From Wenyingzhuangia fucanilytica (lineage in GTDB: Bacteria > Bacteroidota > Bacteroidia > Flavobacteriales > Flavobacteriaceae): DNA of 64,000 bases. The notes beneath the pieces were generated by a model, which was given only the letters and a program-made list of their open reading frames with translations, did no database searches and was not told the DNA's origin. The position numbers were made by a program, and so were the translations under genes. Positions 18,082 to 35,736 of the stretch are shown here, piece after piece; position 1 is the first letter of the stretch; every line of letters starts with the position of its first letter. The stretch is from contig NZ_CP014224.1 of the NCBI RefSeq assembly GCF_001697185.1, forward strand, positions 2,836,501 through 2,900,500, given 5' to 3'.

Positions 18082-18148
18082 CAAAAATACTAACTCCCTT
18101 AACCTTTATTACAGATAATTAGTTTAAATGCTATTTAGTGTCGATGAA
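18082..18148 (-). promoter_or_regulatory. LytTR-type repeat site A with -7 element
   Basis: On the + strand TTAGTTTAA (18119-18127), 12 bp, GTCGATGAA (18140-18148). Read on the minus strand there is a TATTTTTG element at 18082-18089, 29 bp beyond the inner half-site. No TTTG is present at -33, as expected for an activator-dependent promoter. The transcript would run toward the PID-CTERM gene with a leader of about 220 nt. The rest of 17941-18217 contains no gene I can support. Confidence 0.65.
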
Positions 18149-18217
18149 TGGTGAAAAACACCTGTTAAGCTTATTATCAATATTCATTACGACTCTCAAT
18201 TTTAATCTTAACAACTA

Positions 18218-18967
18218 TTAACTACTTAGAGCGCTAGTAATATTGTATGAAAACCAGATTGAAAGTAACATATAAGGAATTTGCACAGCATCTTTTACTC
18301 CCAATTTAGAATCATCTACATGTACCCATTTGGTTAAAGGTTGTTCATAAATCTTATTCATAATCACTTTGCTTCCGTAATATTTTTTTAGTCTGATAAA
18401 AATTTCCACATCAAACAACCAACGAGTTAAGAATTTATCTTTATAAGCAACATTAATAATTTCTTTCTTAAATACTTTTGCTCCACATTGTGTATCTTCA
18501 ATAGGTAAACCTAAAATCATCAAAACTATCATTTTTACCATTTTAGAAAAAACATTTCTAAAAAAACTTCTTTCTATTTGTCCTTCTCCTTTTCCTCTAG
18601 ATCCATAAACAAAAGTCAATTCATCTCTAAACTTTAGAGTTCTAACCAATTTTTTAAAATCATTAAAATCTGTTGACAAATCAGCATCCATAAATCCAAT
18701 GTATGAGATATCTTCCATTCTATTTAAATACTTAACTCCTGTTCTTACAGCAGCAGCTTTTCCTGCATTTATTTTTACATCAATAACAGTGATGTTATTT
18801 GGCGATTTTGTTTGAAGATTTTCTAAAACCTCTAAAGTATTATCTTTGCTACCATCATTTACAAAACATAAATGATAGTTTTTATTTTCTTTAGCAAAAC
18901 GGATGAATTCGTTTACATTTAATCTATTTGCTTCGTTATAACAAGGGATGATAATTCCAGTTTTCAT
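18218..18967 (-). CDS. Family 2 glycosyltransferase, ALG5/DPM1-like
   Basis: 249 residues from the ATG at 18967. A longer frame from 19009 is ruled out because the -7 element at 18993-19000 lies inside it. The protein begins in the nucleotide-binding strand (MKTGIIIPCYNEANRL), has VNDGSKDNT, MDADLSTD (metal site), GSRGKGEG and DTQCGAKVF, typical of dolichyl-phosphate glucosyltransferase-like enzymes. It probably loads a sugar onto a polyprenyl phosphate for the membrane enzyme encoded divergently at 19146. It is preceded by repeat site B. Confidence 0.88.
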   Translation of the reverse strand: MKTGIIIPCYNEANRLNVNEFIRFAKENKNYHLCFVNDGSKDNTLEVLENLQTKSPNNITVIDVKINAGKAAAVRTGVKYLNRMEDISYIGFMDADLSTDFNDFKKLVRTLKFRDELTFVYGSRGKGEGQIERSFFRNVFSKMVKMIVLMILGLPIEDTQCGAKVFKKEIINVAYKDKFLTRWLFDVEIFIRLKKYYGSKVIMNKIYEQPLTKWVHVDDSKLGVKDAVQIPYMLLSIWFSYNITSALSS

Positions 18968-18992
18968 AATCGTTTGTTTTTTAATTATACAC

Positions 18993-19059
18993 CAAAAGTA
19001 CTCACACATCAGAGCTTAATTTGACATAATTAGTTTAACGGAGCCTTACTGTCGGTGAA
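18993..19059 (-). promoter_or_regulatory. LytTR-type repeat site B with -7 element
   Basis: On the + strand TTAGTTTAA (19030-19038), 12 bp, GTCGGTGAA (19051-19059). On the minus strand TACTTTTG (18993-19000) follows the inner half-site after exactly 29 bp, the same as in site A. The gene starts 25 nt after the -7 element. The leader sequence is about 75% identical to that of the GT4 gene behind site C. Confidence 0.75.
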
Positions 19060-19145
19060 TGAAAAAAAACATAAGTCCACAACCATTTAACTTCACAAAA
19101 CTTTACCCTATATTTATGATAAAAACTCAACGTACTTATATATAA

Positions 19146-22100
19146 ATGAAACAAAGCACCAACAAATACCTGATTACTGCTTTATTAATAGGACTTGTTT
19201 TTCATGGCACTGCCATGTTTTTTACATTAGAGACTACTTATGATGCTTTGATACATTTATTTTTTGCCGATCATTATGCTAATAGTTGGTTTGAACCTTG
19301 GAACTTTAAATGGTATACTGGGTTTACCGTAATGAGTTACCCTCCTTTGGTTCATCAAACCATTGCATTGTTTTCTTTAATAGGAGGTTTAAAATTTGGG
19401 CTTTTTAGCACAGCACTTATCGCTGTAGTCTTATTTATTACAGGTACTTATAGATTTTCTTTACTAATCACCTCTAACAGAAGTGCAGCAGGTTATGCAG
19501 CTATACTAGCCACACTATCTTCTACTTTTATAGAAACATTACATATTTTTGGTCAACTACCTAGTATTGTTGGAGTATCGGTTCTTTTACATGCCATGCC
19601 AGAAATTTACCTGTGGATTAAAGAGGGAAAACTAAAATATTTATTCACCTCTCTTTCTTTAATATCTGTTACAGTAACCTCGCATCATGTAACTCCAATT
19701 TTTGGAATGGTATTTTTTATATCCCCTTTGATTGGAACCGCTATCATGGATACTGCAACTCAAAAAGCAAAGGGACTAAAAAAAGTAACTATTAAAATAT
19801 TTTTAATAACCTTTAAACAGCTTAGCAAACGTGTTTTTTTATTTGTAGGATTAGCATTAACCATTATAATAAGCTGCTTAATTCCGTATTGGATTAACAG
19901 TAAAAACAATCCTATTACCCAAGTCCCAATTCCGCATGGTTCTAGGGACAATTTTACAGAAGTTACCTCATCTGGTTTGGTATTCTTTTTAATTCCTTGG
20001 GGAGTTGTTTTGTTTATACTACCTTATATTTTTTATAGATTTTACCACAAACGATATATCTTTTTTGGGATATCATTATCTATGCTAACTTTATTAGGAA
20101 CCGGGGGAACCACTCCCTTACCTAAAATGATTCTAGGAGAAAACGCTTTTAATATTTTAACTCTAGATCGATTTACTTTATGGGCAGCTATTATGTCTAT
20201 TCCAATGGTGGGAGAATTTGCCCTTAGATTTTCTGAAGGGGATTTAAAACAGCTTATACAAAAAAGATTTTCTCCAATTTATCACAGACTATCAGGTGGG
20301 TTTTTAGCATTCTCATTTTTATTTATGAGTGTTTTTACCATAAGCTTAGGATATTTTAGGCCTTCACAACCTCAAAAAATAAAAATACTACCCATTGTTA
20401 ACTTTCTTAATCAAGATCAACATGACCAATGGAGATACCTAACTCTAGGGTTTGGCGATCAAATGGCCTGGCTTTCTGCCAATACTAAAGCCATGACTGT
20501 TGATGGAAATTATCACTCAGCAAGAAGACTACCCGAGCTTACTACTAGAGCGGTAGAACGTTTAGAAAATTCAAAATTTCAAGGAATTGAAGGAATTGGT
20601 TCTTTACAGCAATTTTTAACTGTGCCAGAAAAATATAATTTGAAGTACATTTTTTCTAACGATAAGTTTTATGATCCTATTTTATATTTCTGTGGATGGC
20701 AAAGATTACGACAATTAGAAAACGGAATTATGGTATGGGAAAAATTAAACGTACCTCCTATTAGTGTTATTTTACCTCGGGTAGATGTAGCTACTTGGCA
20801 AAAAATACATTGGGGAACCATTCCTTTACTTACAGTAATTCTAGCTTTTTTAATTAACGCCAGAAGCTTGTTAACACGTACCTTAAAAACCAAAAAAGAT
20901 TACAGTATTGCATACATCAAAGAAAGTTATCTTTATAAAAAATTCCCTTGGAAACTTGTACTCTTTTTACATGCTTGGGTTTTATTTATTTTAATAATTG
21001 TAGCAGTTACCTGCTATTCATTTTATATTAAAAACGATTCACAAAACTCCCCAGAAAATGCCATTTTAACTTATTATGATGCTTTAGATTTTAAACGTTT
21101 TGAAAAAGCTCATAGCTTAATCAATCCAGAAAGTAATATTTCTATTGCACAATACATGCTGCAAGTTTCAGTTACTGATGGCCTTCTAAGTTCTTATGCA
21201 AAACTGGATGAAATCAATATTGATATTACTGAAAAAACAGATACAAGCGCTATTGCCTTTGTAAAAACATCTTGGATTACCGCTTTAAAAAAAGTAAACG
21301 ATAGTTGTGTTAAAACATTGGTTAAGAAAAATGGAAATTGGTTTATAAATCCTGATAACATTAACAAAGACCTACCTCCAGACCAACTGTCTGTAGAAAA
21401 CAAACCCATCTATTTTAACCAAGGGAGAAGAAGAATTACTACTGAGCAAACCTACCACGAGGATGTTTTAAAACAGCCTGTATTGGAAATTCTTAACGCT
21501 AAACTTATTAAAACAAATCATCGATATGCTATTATTGGGGAAGTTCAAAACATAGACAATGTACCGGCAGATGTTGTTTTAAAAGGAACTTTATACAACG
21601 AACAAAACAAACTTTTAGCAACCTATAATGCTAAAAACCAAGTAAAACATAAGTTACTGCCTAAAGAAATTACCTCTTTTAAAATAGATTTTGAAGGAAT
21701 TGCCTGGCTTAACTCCAATGAGAAATCTCCCAAAACCTTTGATCCAGATGAATTTACAGAAGTTAATTTAAGCGACATCCCTACAAAATTTGACTTGCAA
21801 ATAGCTGGAAATGTATCAGGGTCAGATTTATATAAAAAAGTAGCAATTTCTGATTTAAACATCACCTCATCAGAAATAAATGGATTACTCTTTAATAGTG
21901 GTACAGCACAATCAACCATACCACAATTAATTTTCACTTTTTACAACCAAGAAAAAGAACCTATTTATGTAGACGATGTTTATGTTATTGAAGGAATTAG
22001 ACAACAACGAAAACATTTTTTTGAATATAAAATTCCTCAAAATTCTACCAAAATCATCAATAGCAGCATGGAAAATTGTTTTGTAAACGGACTTCCAAAC

Positions 22101-22229
22101 CAATCTATTGCTAATAAAATTACTGAACAACGTAAGGGAAACATCCATAACCCTTTGATAAAAATAGACCATCCCCATTTCTCCTATATTAAAATAGAAA
22201 TCAACAACTATACTGGTGTTCCATATTAA
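19146..22229 (+). CDS. Large polytopic membrane protein (PTPS-related/GT-C-like) with periplasmic domains
   Basis: 1027 residues. Residues 1-400 carry about ten membrane helices, and an acidic loop (TYDALIHLFFADHY, about 30-43) sits between helices 1 and 2 as in GT-C enzymes and the '6-pyruvoyl-tetrahydropterin synthase-related' membrane family. A soluble part follows, then two more helices (about 555 and 610). After them comes an NTF2-like segment (about 635-735), an FxLYD-like beta domain (about 775-860) and a second beta domain to the end. It probably uses a polyprenyl-linked sugar outside the membrane. The next gene starts directly after its stop codon. Confidence 0.6.
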   Translation: MKQSTNKYLITALLIGLVFHGTAMFFTLETTYDALIHLFFADHYANSWFEPWNFKWYTGFTVMSYPPLVHQTIALFSLIGGLKFGLFSTALIAVVLFITGTYRFSLLITSNRSAAGYAAILATLSSTFIETLHIFGQLPSIVGVSVLLHAMPEIYLWIKEGKLKYLFTSLSLISVTVTSHHVTPIFGMVFFISPLIGTAIMDTATQKAKGLKKVTIKIFLITFKQLSKRVFLFVGLALTIIISCLIPYWINSKNNPITQVPIPHGSRDNFTEVTSSGLVFFLIPWGVVLFILPYIFYRFYHKRYIFFGISLSMLTLLGTGGTTPLPKMILGENAFNILTLDRFTLWAAIMSIPMVGEFALRFSEGDLKQLIQKRFSPIYHRLSGGFLAFSFLFMSVFTISLGYFRPSQPQKIKILPIVNFLNQDQHDQWRYLTLGFGDQMAWLSANTKAMTVDGNYHSARRLPELTTRAVERLENSKFQGIEGIGSLQQFLTVPEKYNLKYIFSNDKFYDPILYFCGWQRLRQLENGIMVWEKLNVPPISVILPRVDVATWQKIHWGTIPLLTVILAFLINARSLLTRTLKTKKDYSIAYIKESYLYKKFPWKLVLFLHAWVLFILIIVAVTCYSFYIKNDSQNSPENAILTYYDALDFKRFEKAHSLINPESNISIAQYMLQVSVTDGLLSSYAKLDEINIDITEKTDTSAIAFVKTSWITALKKVNDSCVKTLVKKNGNWFINPDNINKDLPPDQLSVENKPIYFNQGRRRITTEQTYHEDVLKQPVLEILNAKLIKTNHRYAIIGEVQNIDNVPADVVLKGTLYNEQNKLLATYNAKNQVKHKLLPKEITSFKIDFEGIAWLNSNEKSPKTFDPDEFTEVNLSDIPTKFDLQIAGNVSGSDLYKKVAISDLNITSSEINGLLFNSGTAQSTIPQLIFTFYNQEKEPIYVDDVYVIEGIRQQRKHFFEYKIPQNSTKIINSSMENCFVNGLPNQSIANKITEQRKGNIHNPLIKIDHPHFSYIKIEINNYTGVPY

Positions 22230-23417
22230 ATGAAAAAACTTTTTTTACATATTATATTTCTACTAGCCATTTGTTCCTATGCACAAAAGAGCAACATGCA
22301 ACTGCTAAATAAAAAGCTTGACTTTATTGCTGGTAGCCCTATCAATCTTGTTTTTAATAAAACAACAGACAGTATACCTAATTTATATTGTAGCAGTAGT
22401 TATGGAAATATTTTAATTAGTCCCACAATAAAAAACAATGAATTGCAGTACTTAATTCCTGATTTTATCAGTCAAAAATCTGGATATGTTTATTGGCAAC
22501 TTACTCAAGAATTTCATCACCTTAAAGGAAGCTTTTATATACACCCTACCAACAAGATTAACAATATAGAAACTTATTTAGGACCACCTAGCATTGAAGC
22601 TGGAGAAGTAGATTACGCGATGTTGGTTACCATTCCGCTAGACAACTACAATAATCCTGTTGCCAAGAATACTCCTGTTATTATTAACACAAAACACCTA
22701 AGTAATACCCAACAAAAAACTATTCCTTTTGATGGCATGATTGCTTATCAAAAAATATACAGCAATAAAACTGCAGGAAGAAGTTTTATTAGCACTAACT
22801 GTTTAAATCAGACCTCTAAAGAATATACTTTAGAAATTGTCCCTGCAAGTCCTACAAATTTTAACATTGATTCAAAAAGAGTTCATGATTTTGGAGATGG
22901 AAATCAGGTTACTCAATTTTACACCTCAAAAATTAAAGACAGATATAATAATATTGTTGCCGATGGGACTTCTGTTACTTTTAGAATAGAAAATGATAAA
23001 AAAATGTACTTGCAAACTTTTGGCACCACTATTAACGGAATTGCCACTGCAAAAATGGTTCACCCAGACCATTCAGACACCTGGAATATTCAAGCTTTTG
23101 TAGATGGTTTTGCTGTTAGCAACACTATATCTTTAACCTATAAAAATGCTGTTAAAGATTTTAATATTGAGTTTAAAAAAGACTCTAAACATTTGGTGGT
23201 CGGTCCTTTTAAAAGCTTTATGCAACAAACTCTTCCTGATGGATTAATGGTAAAAATCTCTTTATTTGAGAATGAAAAAATAATCCAGAAAATCAATTCT
23301 CAAACCGAAGATGGATTTTCCATTTTTGACTTACACACGTTTCTTAAAAAGAATAAGAATTATAACGTAAAAATTGAAGCAGCACAAATAAGTAAACAAC
23401 TAGAAATTAAACTCTAA
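22230..23417 (+). CDS. Secreted Ig-like domain protein of the exopolysaccharide locus
   Basis: 395 residues with a signal peptide (KKLFLHIIFLLAICSYAQ). The body is beta-rich; residues 110-310 look like two bacterial Ig-like (invasin/Big-type) domains, with the recurring phrase DNYNNPVAKNTPV and DRYNNIVADGTSV. No catalytic motif is visible. The ATG follows the previous stop without a gap, and the stop overlaps the next ATG by 1 bp, so the three genes are translated as a unit. Probably an envelope partner of the enzymes either side; I do not recognise a named family. Confidence 0.65.
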   Translation: MKKLFLHIIFLLAICSYAQKSNMQLLNKKLDFIAGSPINLVFNKTTDSIPNLYCSSSYGNILISPTIKNNELQYLIPDFISQKSGYVYWQLTQEFHHLKGSFYIHPTNKINNIETYLGPPSIEAGEVDYAMLVTIPLDNYNNPVAKNTPVIINTKHLSNTQQKTIPFDGMIAYQKIYSNKTAGRSFISTNCLNQTSKEYTLEIVPASPTNFNIDSKRVHDFGDGNQVTQFYTSKIKDRYNNIVADGTSVTFRIENDKKMYLQTFGTTINGIATAKMVHPDHSDTWNIQAFVDGFAVSNTISLTYKNAVKDFNIEFKKDSKHLVVGPFKSFMQQTLPDGLMVKISLFENEKIIQKINSQTEDGFSIFDLHTFLKKNKNYNVKIEAAQISKQLEIKL

Positions 23418-24937
23418 TGACTTTAAGTATTCATAAAAACATATTAAAAATATCATTATTTGTTATTTATATCACTGTAACATTACTTGTAGTATTTGGA
23501 CTTAGTGCTGTGTTTACCTATTTAAACACAGGAGCTGATAGAAATTTAATACTTCATAATAAAATACACGAAACCGTACATTACCAACCCCAAATTAATT
23601 GGGATTTATCTAACACAGAAGGGAGACAAGTTAGCAACACCACTATACAAAACTTAGAAAAAGATTATCTAAACGCATGGTATGTTAAACAAGTGGCTTT
23701 TGAAAAAAACACCAATAAAGGATTAAAAGATTATTACACAAAAAGTAGTTTAAAAAACATTTTAACCTCTATAGAAAACAATACAAAAAACAATGTACAC
23801 ATTAAAGGAACTACTTTAAACCACAATCCTTCTTTAGATTTTTTTAGTGAAGATGGTCAGCTAATTGTAATTACCGACAAAAATGTAAAAGAATACAAAA
23901 GACTATATAAAAACAATATTTTACAATTAGAAACTACAGAAGTTAACAGCTATAAAATACTCCTGTTGCTAGAAGATGGTTTTTGGAGGATTAGACAAAT
24001 TTTAAGAATTAATCCTACTAACAACAACACTTCGCAAACTCCTTTCATCAATTTAGAACAAGATATTAAAGGAATTAACTATTATCCACAAAACACCGCA
24101 TGGGATATGTTTGGTGATGATTTTGACACTCAAATTATAGACAAGGATTTTAAAATTATTAAAGATGCAGGATTAAATACCATTCGAGTTTTTATTCAGT
24201 ATGAAGATTTTGGTAAATCGGAAGTAAAACAAAATAAATTAGAAAAACTTACAAAAACATTAAACCTAGCTAGTAAAAACAACCTAAAAGTAATCATTAC
24301 GCTGTTTGATTTTTATGGAGATTACCAAGTGTTAGATTGGACTTTAAACAACAAACACGCAACTACCATTGTCAACCATTGTAAAGAACACCCTGCTTTG
24401 TTGGCTTGGGATATTAAAAACGAACCCAATTTAGATTTTGATTCTAGAGGAAAACAAAATGTTTTAGCTTGGTTAAAACAAATGATTTACCATGTAAAAA
24501 CCACAGATAGACATCATCCTGTAACCATAGGATGGTCTAATACAAAAAGTGCCACTTATTTAAGTGATATGGTTGATTTTGTAAGTTTTCATTATTACGA
24601 AGATTTAAATCAACTAGAAAAAGCTTATCAACAATTAAAGAAAGAGATTCCTACAAAAGAGATTGTGTTAGGAGAATACGGAATGTCTTCTTACCGAGGA
24701 CTTTGGAGTCCTTTTGGAAATTCTGAAAAAGATCAAGCTGAATATCATCAGCAATTTCAAGAAATAGCCCACAAAAACAAGATTCCTTTTGTTTCTTGGA
24801 CTTTGTATGATTTTAAAAAAATCCCCAAAGAAGTTGTTGGACAACTTCCTTGGAGAAAATATAATCAAAAGCATTTTGGTTTTATAAATCAATCTGGGAA
24901 AAGAAAAGCATCCTTCCAATATATTGCTAAGCCGTAA
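23417..24937 (+). CDS. Membrane-anchored GH5-like glycoside hydrolase
   Basis: 506 residues. One N-terminal membrane anchor (about 10-38), a region of about 150 residues similar in style to NTF2-like domains, then a (beta/alpha)8 domain from about 215. Its markers are GINYYPQNTAWDMF, NTIRVFIQYEDFG, the WDIKNEPN acid/base Glu, VSFHYYED and the nucleophile-type Glu in IVLGEYGMSSYRG. This is the layout of clan A cellulase-like hydrolases. Its place in a polysaccharide synthesis locus recalls the cellulase BcsZ, which trims nascent polymer. Its 3' end overlaps the convergent GT4 gene by 11 bp. Confidence 0.78.
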   Translation: MTLSIHKNILKISLFVIYITVTLLVVFGLSAVFTYLNTGADRNLILHNKIHETVHYQPQINWDLSNTEGRQVSNTTIQNLEKDYLNAWYVKQVAFEKNTNKGLKDYYTKSSLKNILTSIENNTKNNVHIKGTTLNHNPSLDFFSEDGQLIVITDKNVKEYKRLYKNNILQLETTEVNSYKILLLLEDGFWRIRQILRINPTNNNTSQTPFINLEQDIKGINYYPQNTAWDMFGDDFDTQIIDKDFKIIKDAGLNTIRVFIQYEDFGKSEVKQNKLEKLTKTLNLASKNNLKVIITLFDFYGDYQVLDWTLNNKHATTIVNHCKEHPALLAWDIKNEPNLDFDSRGKQNVLAWLKQMIYHVKTTDRHHPVTIGWSNTKSATYLSDMVDFVSFHYYEDLNQLEKAYQQLKKEIPTKEIVLGEYGMSSYRGLWSPFGNSEKDQAEYHQQFQEIAHKNKIPFVSWTLYDFKKIPKEVVGQLPWRKYNQKHFGFINQSGKRKASFQYIAKP

Positions 24938-26126
24938 TCGCTTGTGGAGCTTTTCTTGCAAAGATTGATTCAAAGTTGTTAATATACATATCTGCAATAG
25001 TACTCATTGGAAATGCTGTTGCAGCTCTGTAATTTGCTTGTCCTAAAGAAGTTCTGTAAGCTTCATTTACCACTATATTTTCTATAGCTGTAGCCAAACT
25101 ATCTACACAAGTAGGATTAAAAAACTCTCCTTTATATCCTTCATCTTGTACTAACAAAGCCAAATCTCCTAAGTCTGGCATTACAACTGCTTTACCATAA
25201 CTACCTGCTTGGTGTAATACTCCTGAACTACCTGTTGTTGCTGTGTATGGAAATACTACTACTGCACTATTTTGAAACAATGGAGCTACTTCTTCTTCTT
25301 CTACATATCCTGTAAAACGCACACCAGAAACATGCTTATATTGCTCTTGTACTCCTGCTAAATATCCTGGCACATTTGGGTTGTCTGTTCCTGCAATTAC
25401 AACTTCTAAATCTAATCCTGTGTTAGTTCTTACTTTTTCTACAGCCTCTATCATAGACTCTACTTTTTTGTAAGTTCCAAACTTTCCAAAAGTCATAATT
25501 TGTAAAGGTCCTTCTTTTGTTTTAAAACTTGGTCTTTCAGACACCTCAAAAGTACCATGTGGAATTAATACTACATTTTTTGCGTTGTATTTAGATTCTA
25601 AAATATCAACATATTTTTGCATGGTTACCGCTACAGTATCTGCTTGTAAAATTAATTTTGTTAAACTAGATCCTATAAAACTATATAATTTTTGCATCAG
25701 TTTGTTTGAGGTAAATCCGGCAGTACCTAAATCTACTTCTTCTAAAATATTGTGTAATAAAACTACCGTAGGAATTCTTTTAATTCTACAAATTAACGGC
25801 AACATTAATCCAAGAGCCGCTGCAACTTTTTTATCTCCAAACTTCATAAATTGTAAGTTGAATAATACTGCATCTGGTTTTACTTCATTAATAGCGCTAG
25901 TTACGTTTACAATATTTGTATAGCTATTAAATTTCCAACATTCTTTTACAGTAATTTTACATCCTTGCTCTTCAAAATTTAAATCTTTAGCCTCTGGAGT
26001 TTCATCTGTTAATAAAATGATTTCTGATATTTCTTGTTTTTGTCTAAAGTTTTTAACCAAGTGATATGCATACTCATTTAAAGTTACTTTACTTGGTGGA
26101 TACGATGTTACGATTGCTAATTTCAT
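24927..26126 (-). CDS. GT4-type glycosyltransferase
   Basis: The start is the ATG at 26126 (MKLAIVTSYPPSKVTLNEYA); a frame from 26165 would begin upstream of the -7 element at 26152. About 399 residues with GT-B fold: an N-terminal acceptor domain, then LIPHGTF, MTFGKFGTYKKVE (Gly-rich phosphate loop), VRFTGYVEEEEV and FPYTATTGSSGVLHQAGSYGKAVV, the E-x7-E-type donor loop region. It adds a sugar in the cytoplasm to a lipid-linked intermediate. It is preceded by repeat site C. Confidence 0.88.
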   Translation of the reverse strand: MKLAIVTSYPPSKVTLNEYAYHLVKNFRQKQEISEIILLTDETPEAKDLNFEEQGCKITVKECWKFNSYTNIVNVTSAINEVKPDAVLFNLQFMKFGDKKVAAALGLMLPLICRIKRIPTVVLLHNILEEVDLGTAGFTSNKLMQKLYSFIGSSLTKLILQADTVAVTMQKYVDILESKYNAKNVVLIPHGTFEVSERPSFKTKEGPLQIMTFGKFGTYKKVESMIEAVEKVRTNTGLDLEVVIAGTDNPNVPGYLAGVQEQYKHVSGVRFTGYVEEEEVAPLFQNSAVVVFPYTATTGSSGVLHQAGSYGKAVVMPDLGDLALLVQDEGYKGEFFNPTCVDSLATAIENIVVNEAYRTSLGQANYRAATAFPMSTIADMYINNFESIFARKAPQAITA

Positions 26127-26151
26127 AATGCTTTGTGTTTTAATTATGATG

Positions 26152-27607: not shown

Positions 27608-27655
27608 TAAACGACCTAATATCATTAACTTGTAATCATCAAAAAAAAGCTACTA

Positions 27656-29716
27656 ATGAAGAAATTTATCATACTATTCACATTCTTATTTTCTCTCCAT
27701 TTCTATTCTCAAGAAATGCAAAAAGGATTTAGCTATCTGGAAACAGGAGATTATAAAAAAGCAGAAACTTTTTTTGAAAAAACTTTAAAAGAATACCCTA
27801 ACAACAAAACCGCCAAATTATGTTATGGTAGAGCCGTAGGACTAAATGGAAAACCTGCACAAGCCGTAACTATTTTTACTGAATTACTAGAAGCTTACCC
27901 TAACGATTTTGAAATTCAGTTAAACTATGCAGAGTCTTTATTATGGAGTAAAAAATTTAACCAAGCAAAAGAATATTACATCAACCTAACCTCTACCAAT
28001 CCTAAAAGCTTCCCTGCTTTATTAGGATATGCCAACACATTGTCTAATTTAAAAGAGTACCATAGCGCTTTAGAATATGTTAACAAAGCTTTAGAGGTAT
28101 TACCTAACAATGCTAATGCAATGGTTTCTAAAAAATACATATACTTAGGATTGGCCAACCAACAACAACAAAATCAACAATACGGAAAAGCTATTGCTAC
28201 TTTAAAAACCAATTTAAAACTGTTCCCTAAAGACAAAGACATCTATTTAAATTTAGCCAACACTTATATTATTGCCAAAAAACATCAAGAAGCAGAAGCT
28301 TTGTTTGTAGAAATGCAAAAAGATCCAAATCTATATTTTCATGCTAAAAACGGTTTATCTTTAAACGCTCATTTACAAGAAAAAGACAAAAAAGCACTTG
28401 AAATAAGTACCAAAACTCTTGCTGAAATTGACAATAAAACATCACAAAAAGATATAAAAAGCACACAAGAAAGATATGCTCAAGCATTAATTTGGAATAG
28501 AAAATTTGGTGCTGCAAAAAAATACATTGATCAAATTTCTAAAGGCAGAGAAAAAGAAAATTGGATATTAGGACTAAAAGCAACACTATACACCTACACA
28601 GGAGATTTTAATAAAAGTTTAAATACCTACAATGCCATTTTATCAAATGATGAAACCTCTTTTGATGGAAATTTAGGAAAAGCCAATGCCTTAAAAGCAA
28701 ACGGACAAATTGATAATGCGTATTTGGCTGCCAAACAAACTTTGGTACATTTTCCCAATCAAAAAGATGCACTAAACTTTATTAAAACTTTAAACAGTGC
28801 TTATATTCCAACTTTTGAAACAGATGCAAGATATAGTTATGATAATGGTGATAGTGAGGCTTACACCTCCACTTCTCGTGTTATTTTTCCAATGAGTACA
28901 AAACTCACCCTGTCTACTCAATATCAATACAAAAGAGCTATCAATGAGGTTACAGATAACAACAGTACTTCTAATTTAATAGGAGCTGGATTAGGATATC
29001 AATTACATCCAAAAATAAATTTTCTTGGAACTGTTGGTATTAATAAAATTAACGGAAACATCAGTAGTTACGATCAGTTTTACACTGATATTCTTTTTAA
29101 AACCAAACCTTTTAAATTACAAAGTTTGGATTTTGGTTATAAAAGAGAACTACAAAATTTTAATGCCGAATTGTTAAACAGAGAAATTATTCAGAATAAT
29201 TTTTACGGAAATTACAACCTAAGCACAAACTTTAATTTAGGATGGTTTACACAATATTACTACACCACACAAAATGATGACAACACAAGAAATTTATTAT
29301 TCACATCGTTATATTATAATCTTTTGCCCAAACCGGCTTTAAAAACAGGTATTAATTTTCAATACATCACTTTTAAAAATCAAGTACCTACTATTTATTT
29401 TAGCCCTGCAGAATTTAAAGCTGTTGAAATTTTTGTAAACCTTATTAAAGAGCAAGGAATAGCCAAAACTCACAATTGGTATTATGGCTTAACCGCCGCT
29501 ATAGGATATCAATACATTGAACAACAAGCAAAACAAAGTACTTATAGAATTCAAAGTAATGTAGGGTATAAATTTACCGATAGGTGTTATTTAGAAGCTT
29601 TTGCCAATCACAGTAATATAGCTTCGGCAGCAGCTAGTGGATTTACTTTTACAGAATTTGGTGTAAAATTTACTTGGCATTTTCTTAAAAAACCAATTTT
29701 TAAAACACCTTTATAA
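27656..29716 (+). CDS. TPR protein with C-terminal outer-membrane beta-barrel (polysaccharide exporter-like)
   Basis: 686 residues: signal peptide (KKFIILFTFLFSLHFYSQ), about ten tetratricopeptide repeats (25-380), then a barrel of about 300 residues (YaiO-like) made of alternating aromatic strands and ending in TEFGVKFTWHF. The combination resembles BcsC, PgaA and AlgK/AlgE, which guide exopolysaccharide through the periplasm and outer membrane. It is the only export candidate in the locus. Its last 6 bp overlap the end of the convergent LytTR regulator gene. Confidence 0.75.
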   Translation: MKKFIILFTFLFSLHFYSQEMQKGFSYLETGDYKKAETFFEKTLKEYPNNKTAKLCYGRAVGLNGKPAQAVTIFTELLEAYPNDFEIQLNYAESLLWSKKFNQAKEYYINLTSTNPKSFPALLGYANTLSNLKEYHSALEYVNKALEVLPNNANAMVSKKYIYLGLANQQQQNQQYGKAIATLKTNLKLFPKDKDIYLNLANTYIIAKKHQEAEALFVEMQKDPNLYFHAKNGLSLNAHLQEKDKKALEISTKTLAEIDNKTSQKDIKSTQERYAQALIWNRKFGAAKKYIDQISKGREKENWILGLKATLYTYTGDFNKSLNTYNAILSNDETSFDGNLGKANALKANGQIDNAYLAAKQTLVHFPNQKDALNFIKTLNSAYIPTFETDARYSYDNGDSEAYTSTSRVIFPMSTKLTLSTQYQYKRAINEVTDNNSTSNLIGAGLGYQLHPKINFLGTVGINKINGNISSYDQFYTDILFKTKPFKLQSLDFGYKRELQNFNAELLNREIIQNNFYGNYNLSTNFNLGWFTQYYYTTQNDDNTRNLLFTSLYYNLLPKPALKTGINFQYITFKNQVPTIYFSPAEFKAVEIFVNLIKEQGIAKTHNWYYGLTAAIGYQYIEQQAKQSTYRIQSNVGYKFTDRCYLEAFANHSNIASAAASGFTFTEFGVKFTWHFLKKPIFKTPL

Positions 29717-30445
29717 AAGATTTAATCTTTTCATTAACTCTGGTCTGTTAGACCTACTAACAGGAACCACATCTTTTTTAATCAACACGCTATTATCTTC
29801 AATATCGATAATCATTTTGGTATTGATTACATAAGATCTATGTGTTTTTAAGAAGATATCTTTTGGAAGTTTCTCTTCAATCTTTTTTAAAGTAGAGTGA
29901 ACCACATAGTTTTTAGTTTCGGTTTTAATTTGAATATAATCTCCTTTGGCTTCGATTAAATAGATATCTGGAATATTTATTTTCACTAATCTTCTATCAA
30001 TATTTACATATAAATCTTTACCCGGAGAAGCAGTGGTTGGTTTTTCTTGGCTATTTTCTTGTGGCGCTTCAACCTTAGTAGGACCACTTGACAACATTGC
30101 ATTTTCTACCTTTTTAACAGCCTTTAAAAAACGAGGTAACGCAATAGGCTTCACCATATAATCCACAATACAATCATACTCAAACGCATCAATCGCAAAT
30201 TGAGTATCCGAAGTAATTAATACTATTTTAGGTGGATTTTTTAAAGTTTGTATAAAATCAAAGCCTGTAAAATCGGGCATATGTATATCTAAAAATATCA
30301 AATCAACATCGTGTTGGTTTAAATATTTTATAGCTAAAATAGCATTTTCAAATTCTCCATCTATCTGAAGACCTCCTGCTTGACTACATAATTGGTTAAT
30401 CACCATTCTTGAAGTAGCCTCATCATCAACAATAATACAGTTCAT
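29711..30445 (-). CDS. LytTR-type response regulator
   Basis: 244 residues. Receiver domain 1-115 with acidic pocket Asp7-Asp8, phospho-acceptor Asp53 (FLDIHMPD) and Lys99 (VKPIALP); a linker rich in P, T and E; LytTR DNA-binding domain about 145-244, with the typical LIEAKGDYIQIKT and KTHRSYVIN segments. LytTR domains bind paired 9-bp direct repeats with about 12 bp between them, which is the layout found at six promoters here. It is the last gene of the sensor operon and its only DNA-binding protein, so it is the natural output. Confidence 0.95.
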   Translation of the reverse strand: MNCIIVDDEATSRMVINQLCSQAGGLQIDGEFENAILAIKYLNQHDVDLIFLDIHMPDFTGFDFIQTLKNPPKIVLITSDTQFAIDAFEYDCIVDYMVKPIALPRFLKAVKKVENAMLSSGPTKVEAPQENSQEKPTTASPGKDLYVNIDRRLVKINIPDIYLIEAKGDYIQIKTETKNYVVHSTLKKIEEKLPKDIFLKTHRSYVINTKMIIDIEDNSVLIKKDVVPVSRSNRPELMKRLNLL

Positions 30446-30455
30446 ACATACAATT

Positions 30456-30773
30456 TTAACGAGATGCTAAAAACTGGGTCATTACAGATAGGGTTTCTTT
30501 GAATTCATTTTCCAAATCTGAATTACCCGCCCTAAGGTTATTTTCATAATCTACCGCAGTTTCATAACTCTTTTTCAAACCCAAAATACTAATTTTATGC
30601 TTAAGTTTGTGAACTATTTCTACAATTGATTTCTGATCACTCATAATCAGACTATTAAAATACGTTTCTTTTTCTTTAGGAAACTCAGTTAGCATAATTT
30701 CCATCAGTTTTTTCTCAAATTCTTCATCTCCTCCAGAGAGTTCTTTGATATAATCTAAGTTAGGCTTTTCCAT
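30456..30773 (-). CDS. Stand-alone Hpt phosphotransfer protein
   Basis: 105 residues, all-helical in character. The phospho-accepting histidine is His55 in IVHKLKHK, preceded by the acidic/aromatic helix (FEKKLMEIMLTEFPKEKETYF) seen in Hpt domains. It lies 1 bp after the upstream kinase gene and 10 bp before the LytTR regulator. It probably relays phosphate between the receiver proteins at the two ends of the operon. In H-NOX/NosP circuits of other bacteria an Hpt has the same hub position. Confidence 0.88.
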   Translation of the reverse strand: MEKPNLDYIKELSGGDEEFEKKLMEIMLTEFPKEKETYFNSLIMSDQKSIVEIVHKLKHKISILGLKKSYETAVDYENNLRAGNSDLENEFKETLSVMTQFLASR

Positions 30774-30774
30774 T

Positions 30775-31827
30775 CTATTTATTTTTTAACAAAAAATTAA
30801 ATGTAGTCCCGTTGTTAACCTCTGATTCTACCCAAATTTTTCCATGATAAATTTCCACAATTTTTTTTACGATTGAAAGTCCTATACCTATTGATTGTTG
30901 AGTGTTTTCTAGCTTAAAAAAAGCTTTAAAAACTTTATCAAAATAATCTTTTTCAATTCCTTTACCATTGTCTTTTACATAGAAATGAAACAAATCTCCA
31001 CCAGGTAAATAACCTACCTCTACCCATCCTTTTTCTTTATCGTTATAAGCTACAGCATTTACTATCAAATTTTGAAAAAGTTGCTGTAATCTATGTTTAT
31101 CACCATTTATAACTGGCAATTCTCCTTTGACCCTTACCTCTATATGATTTGGTATATCAATATATTCAATAATCTCATTTACCAATAAATTTAAATCTAC
31201 AGGGTAAATAACCTCTTCTTTTTTACCTAGAGTAGAATACTCTAAAATACCTGTTACCAAGGCATCCATTTTTTCTACATTAGCCCTTATCAACTTTATT
31301 GTTTGTTGACCAGGGTCATCAATCACCTCACCGTAGTCTTCTTTTAACCATGCTGTTAACGCATCTATACTTCTTAAAGGTGATTTTAAATCGTGAGAAA
31401 CCATGTGAGCATATTCACTAAGTTCATTATTTTGATATTCGAGCTCTTTTAACATTTTTTCTCTTTGCTTGTTCATCTCCACAATTTCTTGTGTTTTTAA
31501 ACTCATCAAATCAATAAACTTTTTGCTTTCTTTTTTTACTTCTTTAGCAACTACCTCATCAAGTTTTTCATTCCCCCTTAAATTATCAACAACATTTTTA
31601 AGTTGAGCAATAATTTCTTGTTGTCTATCTGTATCTTTTTTTAACAATTCATTAGCTTCAAACAGCTCATCAGAACTAATTTTCATGGCACGTTGTAACA
31701 TTAAAAATTGTTCATCATAATTATCATAAGACCTATCAATGGCGTCCAAAAACACATTTATATCTGGATGATCTATTAACTCTTGGGATAAGTATTTTCT
31801 AATTTGTCTTTGCAGTAATGAATTCAT
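30775..31827 (-). CDS. Histidine kinase paired with the FIST sensor
   Basis: 350 residues without membrane helices or a PAS domain. The N-terminal segment (LQRQIRKYLSQELI...FLDAIDRSYDNYDEQFLMLQRAM; about 5-48) resembles the start of kinases that accompany FIST/NosP proteins. A coiled coil (50-140) leads to the HisKA domain with His145 (YAHMVSHDLKSPLRS) and a HATPase domain (NLIVNAVAYND, DNGKGIE, GIGLSIVKKI). The start overlaps the FIST stop by 1 bp (ATGA/TAATG type), so the two are translationally coupled. Confidence 0.92.
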   Translation of the reverse strand: MNSLLQRQIRKYLSQELIDHPDINVFLDAIDRSYDNYDEQFLMLQRAMKISSDELFEANELLKKDTDRQQEIIAQLKNVVDNLRGNEKLDEVVAKEVKKESKKFIDLMSLKTQEIVEMNKQREKMLKELEYQNNELSEYAHMVSHDLKSPLRSIDALTAWLKEDYGEVIDDPGQQTIKLIRANVEKMDALVTGILEYSTLGKKEEVIYPVDLNLLVNEIIEYIDIPNHIEVRVKGELPVINGDKHRLQQLFQNLIVNAVAYNDKEKGWVEVGYLPGGDLFHFYVKDNGKGIEKDYFDKVFKAFFKLENTQQSIGIGLSIVKKIVEIYHGKIWVESEVNNGTTFNFLLKNK

Positions 31828-32960
31828 TATTCGCTAATTAATGTTACTGTAATAGTTTGGTTGTGTAATCTACAGGTATTTTCTCCATTAAAAGGAGCAA
31901 TTTCACCATATGAGTAAAACCCACTAATGGTAGGAATGTCTCCAATAACATTTACAATCTCCTCTACCTCTTCTTCAACTCTTTGATCTAACACTAATTT
32001 ACGCCCTATACAACTTACAAACAGAGCTAATTCTGAGTCTTTAATCCTATTTTTAGTAGCTCCTTTTACCGCCATTTCTGATGCATTGGCAATATTATCT
32101 ATATTGGTCATCATCAGTTGAACCTTAGCTCCTTTTGGAATATCTCCTGCCAAAATCATGGCATTTTTTTCATCATCTATATTTAAAATAGTTCTTACTA
32201 TAGACTGCTCTTCCCCTTCTATTTTTACATTTAAAGGATATAGTAGTGCTGCACTAGGTAATTCTTTTGATTTTTCTCCTAAGTATTGTTTATACAAATC
32301 CAAAGCAGGTTTGTTGTCTAACTCAAACAAAACATTTCCTTCTGATTGAGTTACAATTCTTTCTGGTCCAAAAGGAGTCCATCCTCCAAATATTGAAAAA
32401 GAAACTTCTAAACTTTCACCATATAAACCAATTGCAATAATTTCTCCTTCTTTAGGCTCCTCGTTATAGCCTGCAATTGTTCTTTCAAATCTTTCGGAAT
32501 CTCCACATAGACCTCCTGTAATTAGAACATTATCAGGGGCTACACTTTTCATTCCATCGGTTAATTTACTTCCATTAATAAAACTCCCCTCTGAAACTAC
32601 AAATACAAACTTTAAGTTCTCTAAAGGAAACTGTTCTATAAGTTCTTTTCCTGTTTTAAAACTATCTAAATCTGTATTTAAAACATTACTAGTTTTAATT
32701 AAATACTCACTTTTTTCAAAATCTATAGCAGTAGCTGTAACACTATTATCTTCTACATATTTAGAAGTTACATTTCCACAACTTGAGCCAATAACAATAT
32801 GAGCGTTTTCGAAAATTTCTTTGATCTCTTCGTAAACCGGAATGGATTCTAGAACCAATCTATTCCCAAAAACCAATACTAACGGTTTTTTTAAGGGTTG
32901 ATTTTCACCAATAAAATCCCATTCTCCTTTGTCATTTCTTGTTAATTGTACTCTTTTCAT
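31827..32960 (-). CDS. FIST-domain sensor protein (NosP-like)
   Basis: 377 residues, soluble. FIST N domain about 25-220 (VLVFGNRLVLE, VIGSSCGNV, ITGGLCGDSERF), FIST C domain about 225-365 (PALDLYKQYLG, GFYSYGEIAPF). FIST proteins beside kinases include NosP, a haem-based nitric oxide sensor controlling biofilms in several proteobacteria. Whether this one binds haem cannot be read from the sequence; other FIST proteins may bind small ligands such as amino acids. It is coupled to a kinase on each side: 2 bp from the PAS kinase and 1-bp overlap with the next. Confidence 0.88.
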   Translation of the reverse strand: MKRVQLTRNDKGEWDFIGENQPLKKPLVLVFGNRLVLESIPVYEEIKEIFENAHIVIGSSCGNVTSKYVEDNSVTATAIDFEKSEYLIKTSNVLNTDLDSFKTGKELIEQFPLENLKFVFVVSEGSFINGSKLTDGMKSVAPDNVLITGGLCGDSERFERTIAGYNEEPKEGEIIAIGLYGESLEVSFSIFGGWTPFGPERIVTQSEGNVLFELDNKPALDLYKQYLGEKSKELPSAALLYPLNVKIEGEEQSIVRTILNIDDEKNAMILAGDIPKGAKVQLMMTNIDNIANASEMAVKGATKNRIKDSELALFVSCIGRKLVLDQRVEEEVEEIVNVIGDIPTISGFYSYGEIAPFNGENTCRLHNQTITVTLISE

Positions 32961-32962
32961 AG

Positions 32963-34561
32963 CTATTTTTCTTTTTTAATGGTAAAGTAAAATGTGGTTC
33001 CTTTTCCTGTTTCACTTTCTAACCAAATATTTCCATGATGAAGTTCTACAATTTTTTTCACAATTGAAAGTCCAATACCCGAAGAATCTTTTCTCTTGTT
33101 TAGTGAGTGAAATATTTTAAAAATTTTATCGAAATATTCTTTCTCTATTCCCATACCATTATCAGAAACTGAGAACTGATAATGAGTAGTCATTTCTGTA
33201 CAAGAAACAATAATCTTTCCTATTTCTTTATCAGAAAACTTGATAGCATTGCTTAATAAATTCTGAAAAAGCTGTTGTAACTTTACCTTATCTCCCATCA
33301 CTATTGGCAAATTTTCTTCTATAGAAATATGGATGTTTTCTGGAACATATATAATTTCTACTAGCTCTTTAACCAAGTGATGAACATCTACATTTTGATT
33401 TAAATTTAAATTGGCACCTACACTAGAATATTCTAAAACATCAGAAATTAAATCCTCCATTTTTTCTAATGTTTTTTCAATCAGCACTAAGTTTTGAACA
33501 CTCATTTCATCCAAGTTCTCAATATTATCTTCTTTAATCCATGCCACTAAAGCATTAATACTTCTTAATGGCGATTTTAAATCATGCGAAACAATATGGG
33601 CGTACTCCTGTAAGCTTTCATTACTTTTTGCCAAGTCTTTAAGCAGTTCTTCTTTTTGTTGCTCTAATTTTTTAAGATTGGTAATATCTAAATGAATCCC
33701 TATAGATCCTGAAACCTCTCCATTTAAATTATAATTAGGGGCTCCACTAATTAACCAGTAACGAGTATCTCCTGTTTTTGTATGTACCTGTATTTCATAA
33801 GAATTAGAATCTCCTTTTTTTCTATTTTCAGATTCGATTGCCAACTTTGGCTTGTATTCATTTTTTAAAAAAACATCAGCAGCCTTGTTCCCTAATAAAT
33901 CCTTATTAGAAAAACCGGACATTTCTAAAAAACTGTGATTAGCAAAAAGAATTTTATCATCATTATCAACTTCAAGTAAACCAAGATTCATATTAGCGAT
34001 GATATTGCTATACTTTTGCTTTTCTGCCTCTAACCTTTTTTCGTATTTTTTACTTAATGTAATATCTCTTAAAATTCCTTGAGCAGCAATAGGTGTATTA
34101 TTTTCATCGTAGATGATACTTGCATTCACCTCAACTAATTTTACCTCAGAAGTACTCGTTAATATATTTATATAGAAGTTTGAAATCCTTCCTGTATCCA
34201 TCAATACTTTAAATGATTCTGATACATAATCAAGATCTTTGGGCTGAGTTAATTTCATTAAATTAAATCCACCATCAGACAAACGGTACCCTATTAACTT
34301 TTCAGCGGCTTCGTTCATTTTAATCGCATACCCTGATAAATTCATCATGATATATGGATCTACTAAGTTTTCGTAAAACCCTTTTAACTCAGAGTTTTTT
34401 ACTTTTAATAAAGCCTCTAGTTTTTCTTTATTCTTTTTATCTTTTTGTGATAATGAAAAAAGCTCATCAGATTTTTTTTCTAAAATTTGCTCTGCTTGTT
34501 TTCTTGCTATACGTTCCCTAGCTAAAGCCCTTTGTAATATTTCTATTTCTTTTTGACTCAT
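32963..34561 (-). CDS. PAS-containing histidine kinase paired with the H-NOX sensor
   Basis: 532 residues, soluble. An N-terminal coiled coil (ALARERIARKQAEQILEKKS, about 12-31) of the sort found in H-NOX-associated kinases, two PAS domains (about 62-170 and 184-296), HisKA with His326 (YAHIVSHDLKSPLRS), and HATPase (NLLSNAIKFSD, DNGMGIE, GIGLSIVKKI). The kinase core is nearly the same as in the second kinase (30775-31827), suggesting duplication. It overlaps the H-NOX gene by 4 bp (ATGA). Confidence 0.93.
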   Translation of the reverse strand: MSQKEIEILQRALARERIARKQAEQILEKKSDELFSLSQKDKKNKEKLEALLKVKNSELKGFYENLVDPYIMMNLSGYAIKMNEAAEKLIGYRLSDGGFNLMKLTQPKDLDYVSESFKVLMDTGRISNFYINILTSTSEVKLVEVNASIIYDENNTPIAAQGILRDITLSKKYEKRLEAEKQKYSNIIANMNLGLLEVDNDDKILFANHSFLEMSGFSNKDLLGNKAADVFLKNEYKPKLAIESENRKKGDSNSYEIQVHTKTGDTRYWLISGAPNYNLNGEVSGSIGIHLDITNLKKLEQQKEELLKDLAKSNESLQEYAHIVSHDLKSPLRSINALVAWIKEDNIENLDEMSVQNLVLIEKTLEKMEDLISDVLEYSSVGANLNLNQNVDVHHLVKELVEIIYVPENIHISIEENLPIVMGDKVKLQQLFQNLLSNAIKFSDKEIGKIIVSCTEMTTHYQFSVSDNGMGIEKEYFDKIFKIFHSLNKRKDSSGIGLSIVKKIVELHHGNIWLESETGKGTTFYFTIKKEK

Positions 34562-35100
34562 ACAACTCTAGCAATCGTAAACTTTACTTCGGTTCCATCT
34601 TCTTTAAGTTTTTCGTACTCTATAATGGCATGCTCTCCAAACAATTTAAAAACTTGCTCCATTAAACCTTTACCTAAAATGTATAAAGCTTTATCAGATT
34701 TATAAATCATGACCAACTTATCGTCTTTATGTTCTATTAATTCAAAAGTAGGTAACTGAGCATCCATGTATATTTTCTGAACCTCAAAGTGAATATGATT
34801 TTCTATTGAAGCCAGCAAATCCATTGGATTCTTATAATGTTCAACCAAATTAGGATGTGACTTGATTAGTGTATTAAAAAAATGTTCGGCAAAAACCATT
34901 AAAAGATCATCTACCGACACAGAAGTATTAAGACTTAAATTAGAAATTAACTGAAGCATTTCGGAAAAATCATAAGTTCCTATAGAAGTATAAGCTCCAC
35001 CTGAATTTAATTCTGATTGACTAATAATATTATCAACCATTTCTAATCCATATTTTTCTTCAACCAACTCTAAAAAGTCAGTAAAAACTATTCCTTTCAT
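34558..35100 (-). CDS. H-NOX (HNOB) haem domain protein with a YxSxK motif
   Basis: 180 residues, full-length stand-alone H-NOX. It starts MKGIVF as many bacterial H-NOX do. The proximal haem ligand is His104 (ENHIHFEV), in register with His103 of the Shewanella type and with the spacing to the later LPTF preserved. The haem-propionate motif is YxSxR in the family; here it is Tyr133-Lys-Ser135-Asp-Lys137, so the arginine is replaced by lysine. H-NOX proteins sense NO (or oxygen) and inhibit or stimulate an adjacent kinase. Coupled to the PAS kinase by a 4-bp overlap. Confidence 0.9.
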   Translation of the reverse strand: MKGIVFTDFLELVEEKYGLEMVDNIISQSELNSGGAYTSIGTYDFSEMLQLISNLSLNTSVSVDDLLMVFAEHFFNTLIKSHPNLVEHYKNPMDLLASIENHIHFEVQKIYMDAQLPTFELIEHKDDKLVMIYKSDKALYILGKGLMEQVFKLFGEHAIIEYEKLKEDGTEVKFTIARVV

Positions 35101-35514
35101 CTATAAAGTAATTAACTGGTTAACACTCCAATAAGCTAATAACTTTTCTATTTTAGATACATACTCCTCATATTTCAAAGGTTTTAACACATAACCTGAT
35201 ATCCCTAACTTATAACATTCTAATAAATCTTTTTGATTGTTAGAAGTACTTAAGATGATTGTTGGAATATGTCTTAAATTTGGATTGTTTTTTAAAATAG
35301 TTAAAAACTCAATACCATTTATTTTAGGCATGTTTAAGTCTAATAAAATGATATTTGGCAACCTATCTTTTTGTTCCAAAATTTTTAACCCTTCTTCTCC
35401 ATTAATAGCATTCACCATTTTATGAGATAAATTTAACGAAGAAATGGCTCTGTTAAATTTCATCACTTCAATAGCGTCATCTTCAATCAACAATATTTTT
35501 AAGGATGTGTTCAT
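35101..35514 (-). CDS. Receiver-only response regulator
   Basis: 137 residues, one receiver domain and no output domain. Acidic pocket Glu11-Asp12-Asp13, phospho-acceptor Asp59 (ILLDLNMPKING), the Ser/Thr of IILSTS and Lys of LKPLKYEE are all present. It is the first gene of the seven-gene operon and is preceded by repeat site E. The likely job is as phosphate carrier between the kinases and the Hpt protein or as a sink, since it cannot bind DNA. Confidence 0.93.
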   Translation of the reverse strand: MNTSLKILLIEDDAIEVMKFNRAISSLNLSHKMVNAINGEEGLKILEQKDRLPNIILLDLNMPKINGIEFLTILKNNPNLRHIPTIILSTSNNQKDLLECYKLGISGYVLKPLKYEEYVSKIEKLLAYWSVNQLITL

Positions 35515-35536
35515 TAGTTACTATTTTGTATCTATA

Positions 35537-35603
35537 TAAAATTAATCATTTAATAGGAGCAACTTTTTTTATATCGTTAAAATAGCAATTATCTATCGAC
35601 GAA
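35537..35603 (-). promoter_or_regulatory. LytTR-type repeat site E upstream of the sensor operon
   Basis: Outer half ATCGACGAA (35595-35603) with the TGG extension; the inner half is TCGTTAAAA at 12 bp (35574-35582) or, one base over, ATCGTTAAA at 13 bp. On the minus strand TAATTTTA (35537-35544) stands 50 bp from the outer half, exactly as in sites A to D. The first gene starts 22 nt after the -7 element. An overlapping inverted copy of the outer half (35613-35621) lacks a partner. Confidence 0.6.
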
Positions 35604-35670
35604 TGGCAAATATTCATCGATAAATGTATTTTTATTTAAAAAAGCATTGTTAAACTATAAACGATAACTA

Positions 35671-35736
35671 TTCATCTACATTAAAAAATCATTCAACTAA
35701 TTTTTTGAAAATAAGCTCATACACGCCATAATTTTG
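35671..35736 (+). promoter_or_regulatory. LytTR-type repeat site F and promoter of the 51-residue gene
   Basis: On the minus strand TTAGTTGAA (35692-35700), 12 bp, GTAGATGAA (35671-35679). On the + strand the -7 element TAATTTTG (35729-35736) follows after 28 bp. A TTTG at 35704-35707 is 21 bp from the -7 element, a little longer than usual. The orientation of site to promoter is the same as at the other five. The start codon is 29 nt further on. Confidence 0.72.

Follow-up and report, generated by a model that had tools for sequence, protein, structure and literature searches.

Six paired sites (A-F) lying upstream of surface-polysaccharide genes, a small gene and a gas-sensor operon in Wenyingzhuangia fucanilytica most probably constitute the operators of a single LytTR regulon placed under that operon, whose last gene encodes a LytTR response regulator. 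The window analysed is a 64,000-nucleotide stretch (2836501-2900500) of the one-contig, 3.43-Mb genome of this bacterium (label G000). The sites had been proposed as LytTR operators in an earlier reading of the same stretch, hereafter the original prediction, and this view is supported by their agreement with the published repeat layout, by a half-site resembling that of AlgR, by the recurrence of this motif upstream of orthologs in numerous genera and by its co-occurrence with the regulator. The linked LytTR protein would bind these sites and activate the promoters behind them.

LytTR regulators are described as binding two imperfect direct repeats about 12 bp apart (PMC4064291). Each of the six sites, read directly in the window, consists of 9-bp direct repeats with a 12-bp spacer and, in promoter orientation, runs from an outer half through the 12 bp to an inner half, followed after 28-29 nt by a TAnnTTTG-like (-7) box; the box starts 29 nt after the inner half at A-E and 28 nt after it at F, and the boxes of C (CAATTTTA), D (GAAATTTG) and E (TAATTTTA) depart from TAnnTTTG. 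The coordinates, repeats and spacers claimed in the original prediction match this reading at all six sites, as do the box distances it gave (29 bp, 28 at F); its further claim of little or no -33 element is borne out by 53 hand-collected sites, in which no column from the inner half to position 57 exceeds 0.3 bit. The consensus of the 53 sites is CCATTCRTCKACAS, with the inner half TYYAnCKAA. A start-site paper on F. psychrophilum places the TAnnTTTG box at -12 to -5 (PMC9723704), so that the inner half would lie at about -41 to -50 and the outer half at about -62 to -71; assuming a transcript start 5 nt past the box, the leaders of sites B-F would measure about 18-37 nt. Site E carries a third half-site (TTTATCGAT, 35616-35624) 21 bp farther out, which is also present at six REC promoters in relatives' loci (L033, L037, L038, L039, L041 and L049).

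A matrix of the six sites scored on its own sites is circular and leave-one-out ranks were used instead, by which A, B, D and F rank 1, 3, 6 and 3 in the window. For model building, 29 regions of up to 20 kb around LytTR orthologs in relatives were fetched, in which the six-site matrix found 72 matches scoring at least 14.5, including matches before REC, flippase, GT4, GT2 and the 51-residue gene. Forty-seven of these were taken on by hand and, together with A-F, make up the 53 sites; once the window's own 6, 12 belonging to G001 or G003 and 5 before REC whose -7 box was unclear are removed, 30 sites, all from outside this genome and G001/G003, remain as the alignment A1, from which the model R1 was built. 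The sequences in R1 are independent of the window, though their selection was not blind to A-F. Its six best matches in the window are A-F (E values 1.2e-10 to 2.7e-4; next 0.06). In the genome scan, which scored 150 of 6332 first-look candidates, A-F take ranks 1, 2, 4, 5, 6 and 8, with site D the best of the genome; two candidate small-RNA promoters hold ranks 3 and 7, a secreted-protein gene holds rank 9 (E 0.075), and from rank 10 down the listed matches begin at model position 7 or later. Among the 37 matches at E ≤ 10 from these scored candidates, the two small-RNA promoters and the secreted-protein gene are the only full-length ones besides A-F. Many equal matches in unrelated genes, which the original prediction named as refuting it, were not found among them. 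A binomial value for the clustering of the genome matches was discarded, the stretch itself having been chosen from the sites.

Conservation was followed in 80 named loci, the best 80 of 577 relatives found via LytTR similarity and mostly titled Flavobacteriaceae. R1 gives 196 matches at E ≤ 0.05 in these loci, and the A1 matrix gives 253 at a score of at least 16, against 0 in the same DNA reversed. A rescan with a wider spacing range, once merged, yields 222 promoters in 75 of the 80 loci, 217 of them directed as the LytTR gene. Seventy-nine exact TAnnTTTG boxes occur within 60 nt behind the sites, at distances of 28 nt (28 boxes), 29 nt (24), 30 nt (2), 49-51 nt (21) or elsewhere (4); the 49-51 nt group fits one additional 21-bp repeat. 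With same-strand sites counted up to 450 nt upstream, a site precedes REC, and with it the sensor operon, in 64 of 75 named loci, GT4 in 27 of 33 and the flippase in 28 of 31. The flippase follows directly in five of these 28 cases, as it does behind site D in the window, and after an intervening open reading frame (ORF) of 91-103 aa in 21, while two fit neither arrangement; one such intervening ORF encodes a STAS-domain protein whose relatives follow 28 promoters. The 51-residue gene has a site in the one named locus counted (1/1), and equivalents of site F occur in L031, L032 and L040. No site was found in the named loci before the TPR gene (0/37), the LytTR gene (0/80) or MP1027 (0/1). The flippase, GT4 and TPR genes lie inside the fetched stretch in at least 14 of the 29 relatives.

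The motif also keeps company with the regulator. Orthologs of the LytTR regulator at E ≤ 1e-60 occur in 29 of 98 relatives. In a co-occurrence set of 60 genomes including this one, scanned with stricter filters and read at R1 E ≤ 1e-3 with 82 candidates scored per genome, 18 of the 21 genomes with an ortholog have a match, against 1 of the 39 without (Fisher 2.5e-11); with the ten genomes feeding A1 removed, the figures are 8 of 11 against 1 of 39 (Fisher 2.6e-6). The fetched 20-kb loci of two genomes of the same genus, G002 and G006 (L035 and L036), hold Hpt and LytTR genes, no H-NOX operon within those 20 kb (the part of each genome searched) and no site, the best site scores being 1.4 and 5.1.

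Several points weigh against this reading. In the leave-one-out test with the six-site matrix, C and E rank only 27 and 32 in the window. The sites of A1 were hand-picked for a clear -7 box among matches of a matrix itself derived from A-F, four of the 30 are found verbatim in named loci L170, L175 and L205, which are thus not independent, and both the genome and the co-occurrence scans scored limited numbers of candidates. The named loci were selected through the regulator and hence are uninformative on genomes without it, which the co-occurrence set does cover. Site A stands 219 nt from the ATG of the PID-CTERM gene (254 and 263 nt for its equivalents in L031 and L032), and GT2 is preceded by a site in just one of nine named loci, GT2 sites being present in this genus, in L031 and L032, and in G025 and G011. 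One genome without an ortholog, G009, has a match (2.7e-4), and three with an ortholog, G002, G006 and G082, have none at 1e-3. The genome encodes three further LytTR-domain proteins, making four in total.

The sign of the response bears on the first of three alternatives. Sites placed upstream and a missing -33 element are the usual layout of activator-dependent promoters, and the present sites lie upstream of the -7 box rather than over it, in a fixed helical phase and with no -33 element. It is on these grounds unlikely that the operators repress, or are released by the phosphorylated form, so that the gas would turn the polysaccharide genes off; in its favour, the NO-bound H-NOX of Vibrio and Shewanella is described as inhibiting its kinase (PMC6769237), so that the response here could have either sign. 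A different LytTR protein, or several, might bind the sites with the linked regulator as a bystander, given the four LytTR-domain proteins of the genome, the match in G009 without a close ortholog and an AlgR-like half-site whose core dissimilar LytTR proteins can share; this is quite improbable, as the motif co-occurs with the ortholog of the linked regulator, precedes that regulator's own operon in most named loci and is missing from the two same-genus loci that lack the H-NOX operon. Chance, or a constraint free of any regulator such as shared promoter composition or repeats, to which the AT-rich genome and the low ranks of C and E might point, was rejected as extremely improbable on the R1 result in the window, the leave-one-out ranks, the reversed-DNA comparison, the conservation before the same genes across genera and the co-occurrence with the regulator.

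Table 1. Sites and genes of the proposed regulon in the window (window positions; boxes given as -7; bit scores of sites from R1)
Feature	Position	Strand	Details
Site A	18082-18148	-	outer TTCATCGAC 18140-18148; inner TTAAACTAA 18119-18127; -7 TATTTTTG 18082-18089; 33.8 bits
Site B, before GT2	18993-19059	-	outer TTCACCGAC 19051-19059; inner TTAAACTAA 19030-19038; -7 TACTTTTG 18993-19000; 22 bits
Site C, before GT4	26152-26218	-	outer TTCATCTAA 26210-26218; inner ACAGCCTAA 26189-26197; -7 CAATTTTA 26152-26159; 19.3 bits
Site D, before flippase	27541-27607	-	outer TTCACCGAT 27599-27607; inner TTCAACGAA 27578-27586; -7 GAAATTTG 27541-27548; 38 bits
Site E, before sensor operon	35537-35624	-	third half 35616-35624; outer TTCGTCGAT 35595-35603; inner TTTTAACGA 35574-35582; -7 TAATTTTA 35537-35544; 17.7 bits
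Site F, before 51-residue gene	35671-35736	+	outer TTCATCTAC 35671-35679; inner TTCAACTAA 35692-35700; -7 TAATTTTG 35729-35736; 25.2 bits
PID-CTERM gene, 61 aa	17673-17858	-	NF046080 23.5 bits, under cut-off 26, on 60-aa piece
GT2 glycosyltransferase (ALG5-like in the original prediction)	18218-18967	-	PF00535 6.7e-22
GT4 glycosyltransferase	24927-26126	-	PF13692 7e-18
Polysaccharide flippase	26231-27499	-	PF13440 3.1e-12; start set at ATG downstream of site D
LytTR response regulator, proposed binder	29711-30445	-	PF00072, PF04397
Hpt phosphotransfer protein	30456-30773	-	PF01627 19.8 bits, under cut-off 24.6; C-terminal part of BarA model
Histidine kinase, 350 aa	30775-31827	-	PF00512, PF02518
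FIST-domain protein (NosP-type)	31827-32960	-	PF08495 2.2e-39, PF10442 5.4e-34
PAS histidine kinase, 532 aa	32963-34561	-	PAS, HisKA, HATPase_c
H-NOX heme gas sensor (by family)	34558-35100	-	PF07700 1.7e-34; 6bdd 8.6e-67
Stand-alone receiver (REC), first operon gene	35101-35514	-	PF00072 1.1e-20
51-residue gene behind site F	35766-35921	+	ORF; relatives in L031, L032, L034, L040

The sensor operon runs in the order REC, H-NOX, PAS kinase, FIST protein, kinase, Hpt, LytTR. The structure 6bdd matched by its H-NOX protein is that of the Kordia algicida H-NOX (PMC7356049). The window protein has the NHIH segment and carries the heme motif YKSDK in place of YxSxR; YKSDK is shared by four of 21 other loci, all of the same genus, the other 17 having R, and a pattern search of the H-NOX proteins in the named loci (n=63) returned YxSxR in 60, YxSxK in 2 and none in 1. 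H-NOX is present in 63 of the 80 named loci, FIST in 50, both in 43 and neither in 10, some loci being cut by contig ends, and an Hpt relative is found in 79 of the 80. A sequence search returned no solved relative of the FIST protein. FIST proteins include the nitric oxide (NO) sensor NosP, and the presence of both the H-NOX and the NosP-type FIST families in one operon makes nitric oxide the likely signal. Judging from these families and their order, the H-NOX and FIST proteins would respond to a diatomic gas, nitric oxide being the likeliest, and thereby control how phosphate flows through the two histidine kinases, the stand-alone receiver and Hpt to the LytTR regulator. The regulator would in turn bind the direct half-sites, 21 bp apart and on one helix face at about -41 to -71, and would activate the adjoining promoters, which have a TAnnTTTG box and no visible -33 element. 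Its predicted targets are the operon of sensors to which it belongs, three genes of a surface-polysaccharide cluster (flippase, GT4 and GT2), the 51-residue gene, the gene of a secreted DUF6923 protein at another place in the genome, a pair of small structured RNAs and, possibly, the PID-CTERM gene.

Most of the downstream genes assigned in the original prediction, namely GT2, GT4, the flippase, the sensor operon and the 51-residue gene, stand; the assignment of site A to the PID-CTERM gene is doubtful at the distance given above. That gene has a promoter-like sequence of its own, TTTG-N19-TAATTTTG, directly upstream (17910-17940), and since A is far from the gene it may instead drive a separate transcript. 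PID-CTERM-like genes were also seen behind the LytTR gene in L035. The 51-residue gene has no Pfam or NCBIfam family at E ≤ 0.001. The DUF6923 protein of this genome measures 865 aa and ends in a type IX sorting tail; its gene, at about 2234.6 kb, is far from the LytTR gene and has a site and box upstream. Relatives of this protein, 26-48% identical, follow 36 promoters in 34 of the 80 named loci, and 35 of these 36 sites begin less than 2 kb behind the LytTR gene. The gene has moved here and yet keeps its site, which argues that the site travels with the DUF6923 gene rather than with the neighbourhood. Two other features of the window lie close to the polysaccharide genes: three plus-strand genes at 19146-24937 (1027-aa, 395-aa and a 506-aa glycoside-hydrolase-like product), without a site of their own and conserved beside polysaccharide genes in relatives, and an inverted repeat near the end of the flippase gene (26241-26274, ATTCATCGATAC...GTATCGATGAA), whose arms are half-site-like and which scores 16.5 in the matrix, above site E, without the usual layout with a -7 box.

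Two putative small RNAs, structured and apparently non-coding, probably belong to the regulon. The two extra strong R1 matches of the genome (ranks 3 and 7) lie in one intergenic region, L090, where each promoter is followed, 18 and 16 nt past the start of the -7 box, by ACUUUUUCAUAGC and then by a structured, terminator-ended stretch. The RNAs are predicted to measure about 174 and 146 nt. In the sense direction the longest ORF is 13 codons in one stretch and 12 in the other, the first promoter is overlapped by a minus-strand ORF of 71 codons, and the folding z-scores are -8.7 and -6.5. Both candidates also occur in the same-genus genomes G001 and G003, at two separate loci, each beside the gene that flanks it here. 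Each of the six has a normally spaced site, scoring 16-42 (in a background of reversed DNA, about 0.03% of 400-nt stretches score at least 12), and a z of -4.4 to -7.3; one of those in G003 contains a 34-codon ORF that starts with TTG. ACUUUUUCAUAGC is invariant across the six, and the word UAGCAA is repeated at or close to the second loop. A small-RNA model, R2, built from four of the six and run over 99 genomes with 39 candidates scored per genome, returned six matches at E ≤ 2.1e-4, two each in G000, G001 and G003 (next 0.025), and nothing clear in the other 96. In the automatic RNAalifold alignment of the six RNAs, none of the eight pairs has both sides changed, and covariation thus lends no support; six Rfam matches all fall under their gathering scores.

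In the named loci, a script flagged 12 of the 222 promoters as having a close terminator with no longer ORF before it, and by reading nine of these show no ORF reaching 40 codons before the terminator; seven of the nine lie just behind the LytTR gene, a position at which the terminator may be no more than the sensor operon's own. Three LytTR-type promoters stand in tandem in L238 (3350-4420, minus strand) of Flavobacterium beibuense, the first two followed by non-coding, terminator-bearing stretches of about 130-150 nt and the third pointing towards a receiver-like ORF. Matches in L092 were rejected as terminator-rich repeats, not sites; around 2115-2660 this locus holds an array of near-identical units of about 157 bp, each of which combines a TACTTTTG box with a terminator that is strong and symmetrical. 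An 18-nt match in G002 to the 5' end of the RNA turned out to be the beginning of a PID-CTERM-like gene and was put down to chance. Two partner systems were likewise set aside: a small-RNA system of the RbpB/FopS type, as PF00076 (RRM) was not found in this genome (found in 2 of 14 control genomes, including Bacteroides), and Hfq-dependent small RNAs, as PF17209 was not found either (found in 5 of the 14).

The 5' end of the RNA can pair over the start codon of the FIST gene (GCUAUGAAAA) in each of the three RNA-bearing species, and does so poorly in G004 and G005. Ranked by pairing energy, the FIST start comes first among the examined genes in G003 and G001 and second among 53 window genes in G000, one of which, the PID-CTERM gene, had a wrong start in this test; the start of the 532-aa kinase ranks first in G000 (-19.0) and is unremarkable in G003 and G001. 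FIST has no special place in the ranking in G004 and G005, neither of which yielded such an RNA. Against such a feedback, 0.9% (G003) and 2.6% (G001) of the 70-nt stretches of the locus pair as well as FIST. A search for long antisense targets with the 5' 19-mer of the RNA, allowing at most 3 mismatches, found the two RNAs and four other places, compared with five for a control pattern, and the 12-mer TAGCTATGAAAA with 1 mismatch occurs at 71 places against 65 for its control, showing no genome-wide enrichment, the FIST start being one of four exact occurrences. An RNA feedback on the FIST start is weakened by this background pairing, by the lack of word enrichment and covariation and by the failure to find an Hfq or RRM protein, and is offered as a lead, not as a result.

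The operators predict a direct transcriptional route from gas sensors to polysaccharide genes across the Flavobacteriaceae; their motif is sharp enough for the regulon to be read from sequence in these genomes, and it leads to candidate small RNAs without a known RNA partner. A search of the literature by title and abstract, largely without subscription journals, found no treatment of a LytTR regulon governed by H-NOX or FIST. The system is of a known kind, and its combination of parts appears to be new.

In GacA - RsmY/RsmZ, twin small RNAs bearing repeated motifs are under the control of a response regulator; the motif there is GGA and here UAGCAA. Operators of the AgrA/PlnC type have a different half-site. 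They are described as sharing the layout of two imperfect direct repeats about 12 bp apart (PMC4064291) and differ from the present case, which combines a Bacteroidota promoter with a phosphorelay containing Hpt. The half-site consensus found here, CCATTCRTCKAC, is near the AlgR core, though not identical to it, and suggests a resemblance in binding mode; membership of an AlgR regulon is not claimed. To our knowledge, AlgR has no known link to H-NOX or FIST sensors. AlgR of Pseudomonas aeruginosa, the regulator of alginate, is likewise a LytTR-family protein that controls exopolysaccharide genes, with the core CCGTTCGTC; its sites are not necessarily direct repeats with 12-bp spacing and some lie hundreds of bp from the start (PMC4064291), whereas the sites searched for and found here are paired and keep a constant distance to the -7 box. 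Published accounts of gas sensing through H-NOX and NosP deal mainly with cyclic di-GMP enzymes, kinases and the quorum circuits of Vibrio; in the latter, heme NO sensors act on kinases, LuxU and LuxO and thence on the Qrr small RNAs, and biofilm is affected (PMC6769237). In comparison, the system proposed here would have LytTR rather than LuxO as its output, it brings H-NOX and FIST together in one operon, and polysaccharide genes are among its direct predicted targets.

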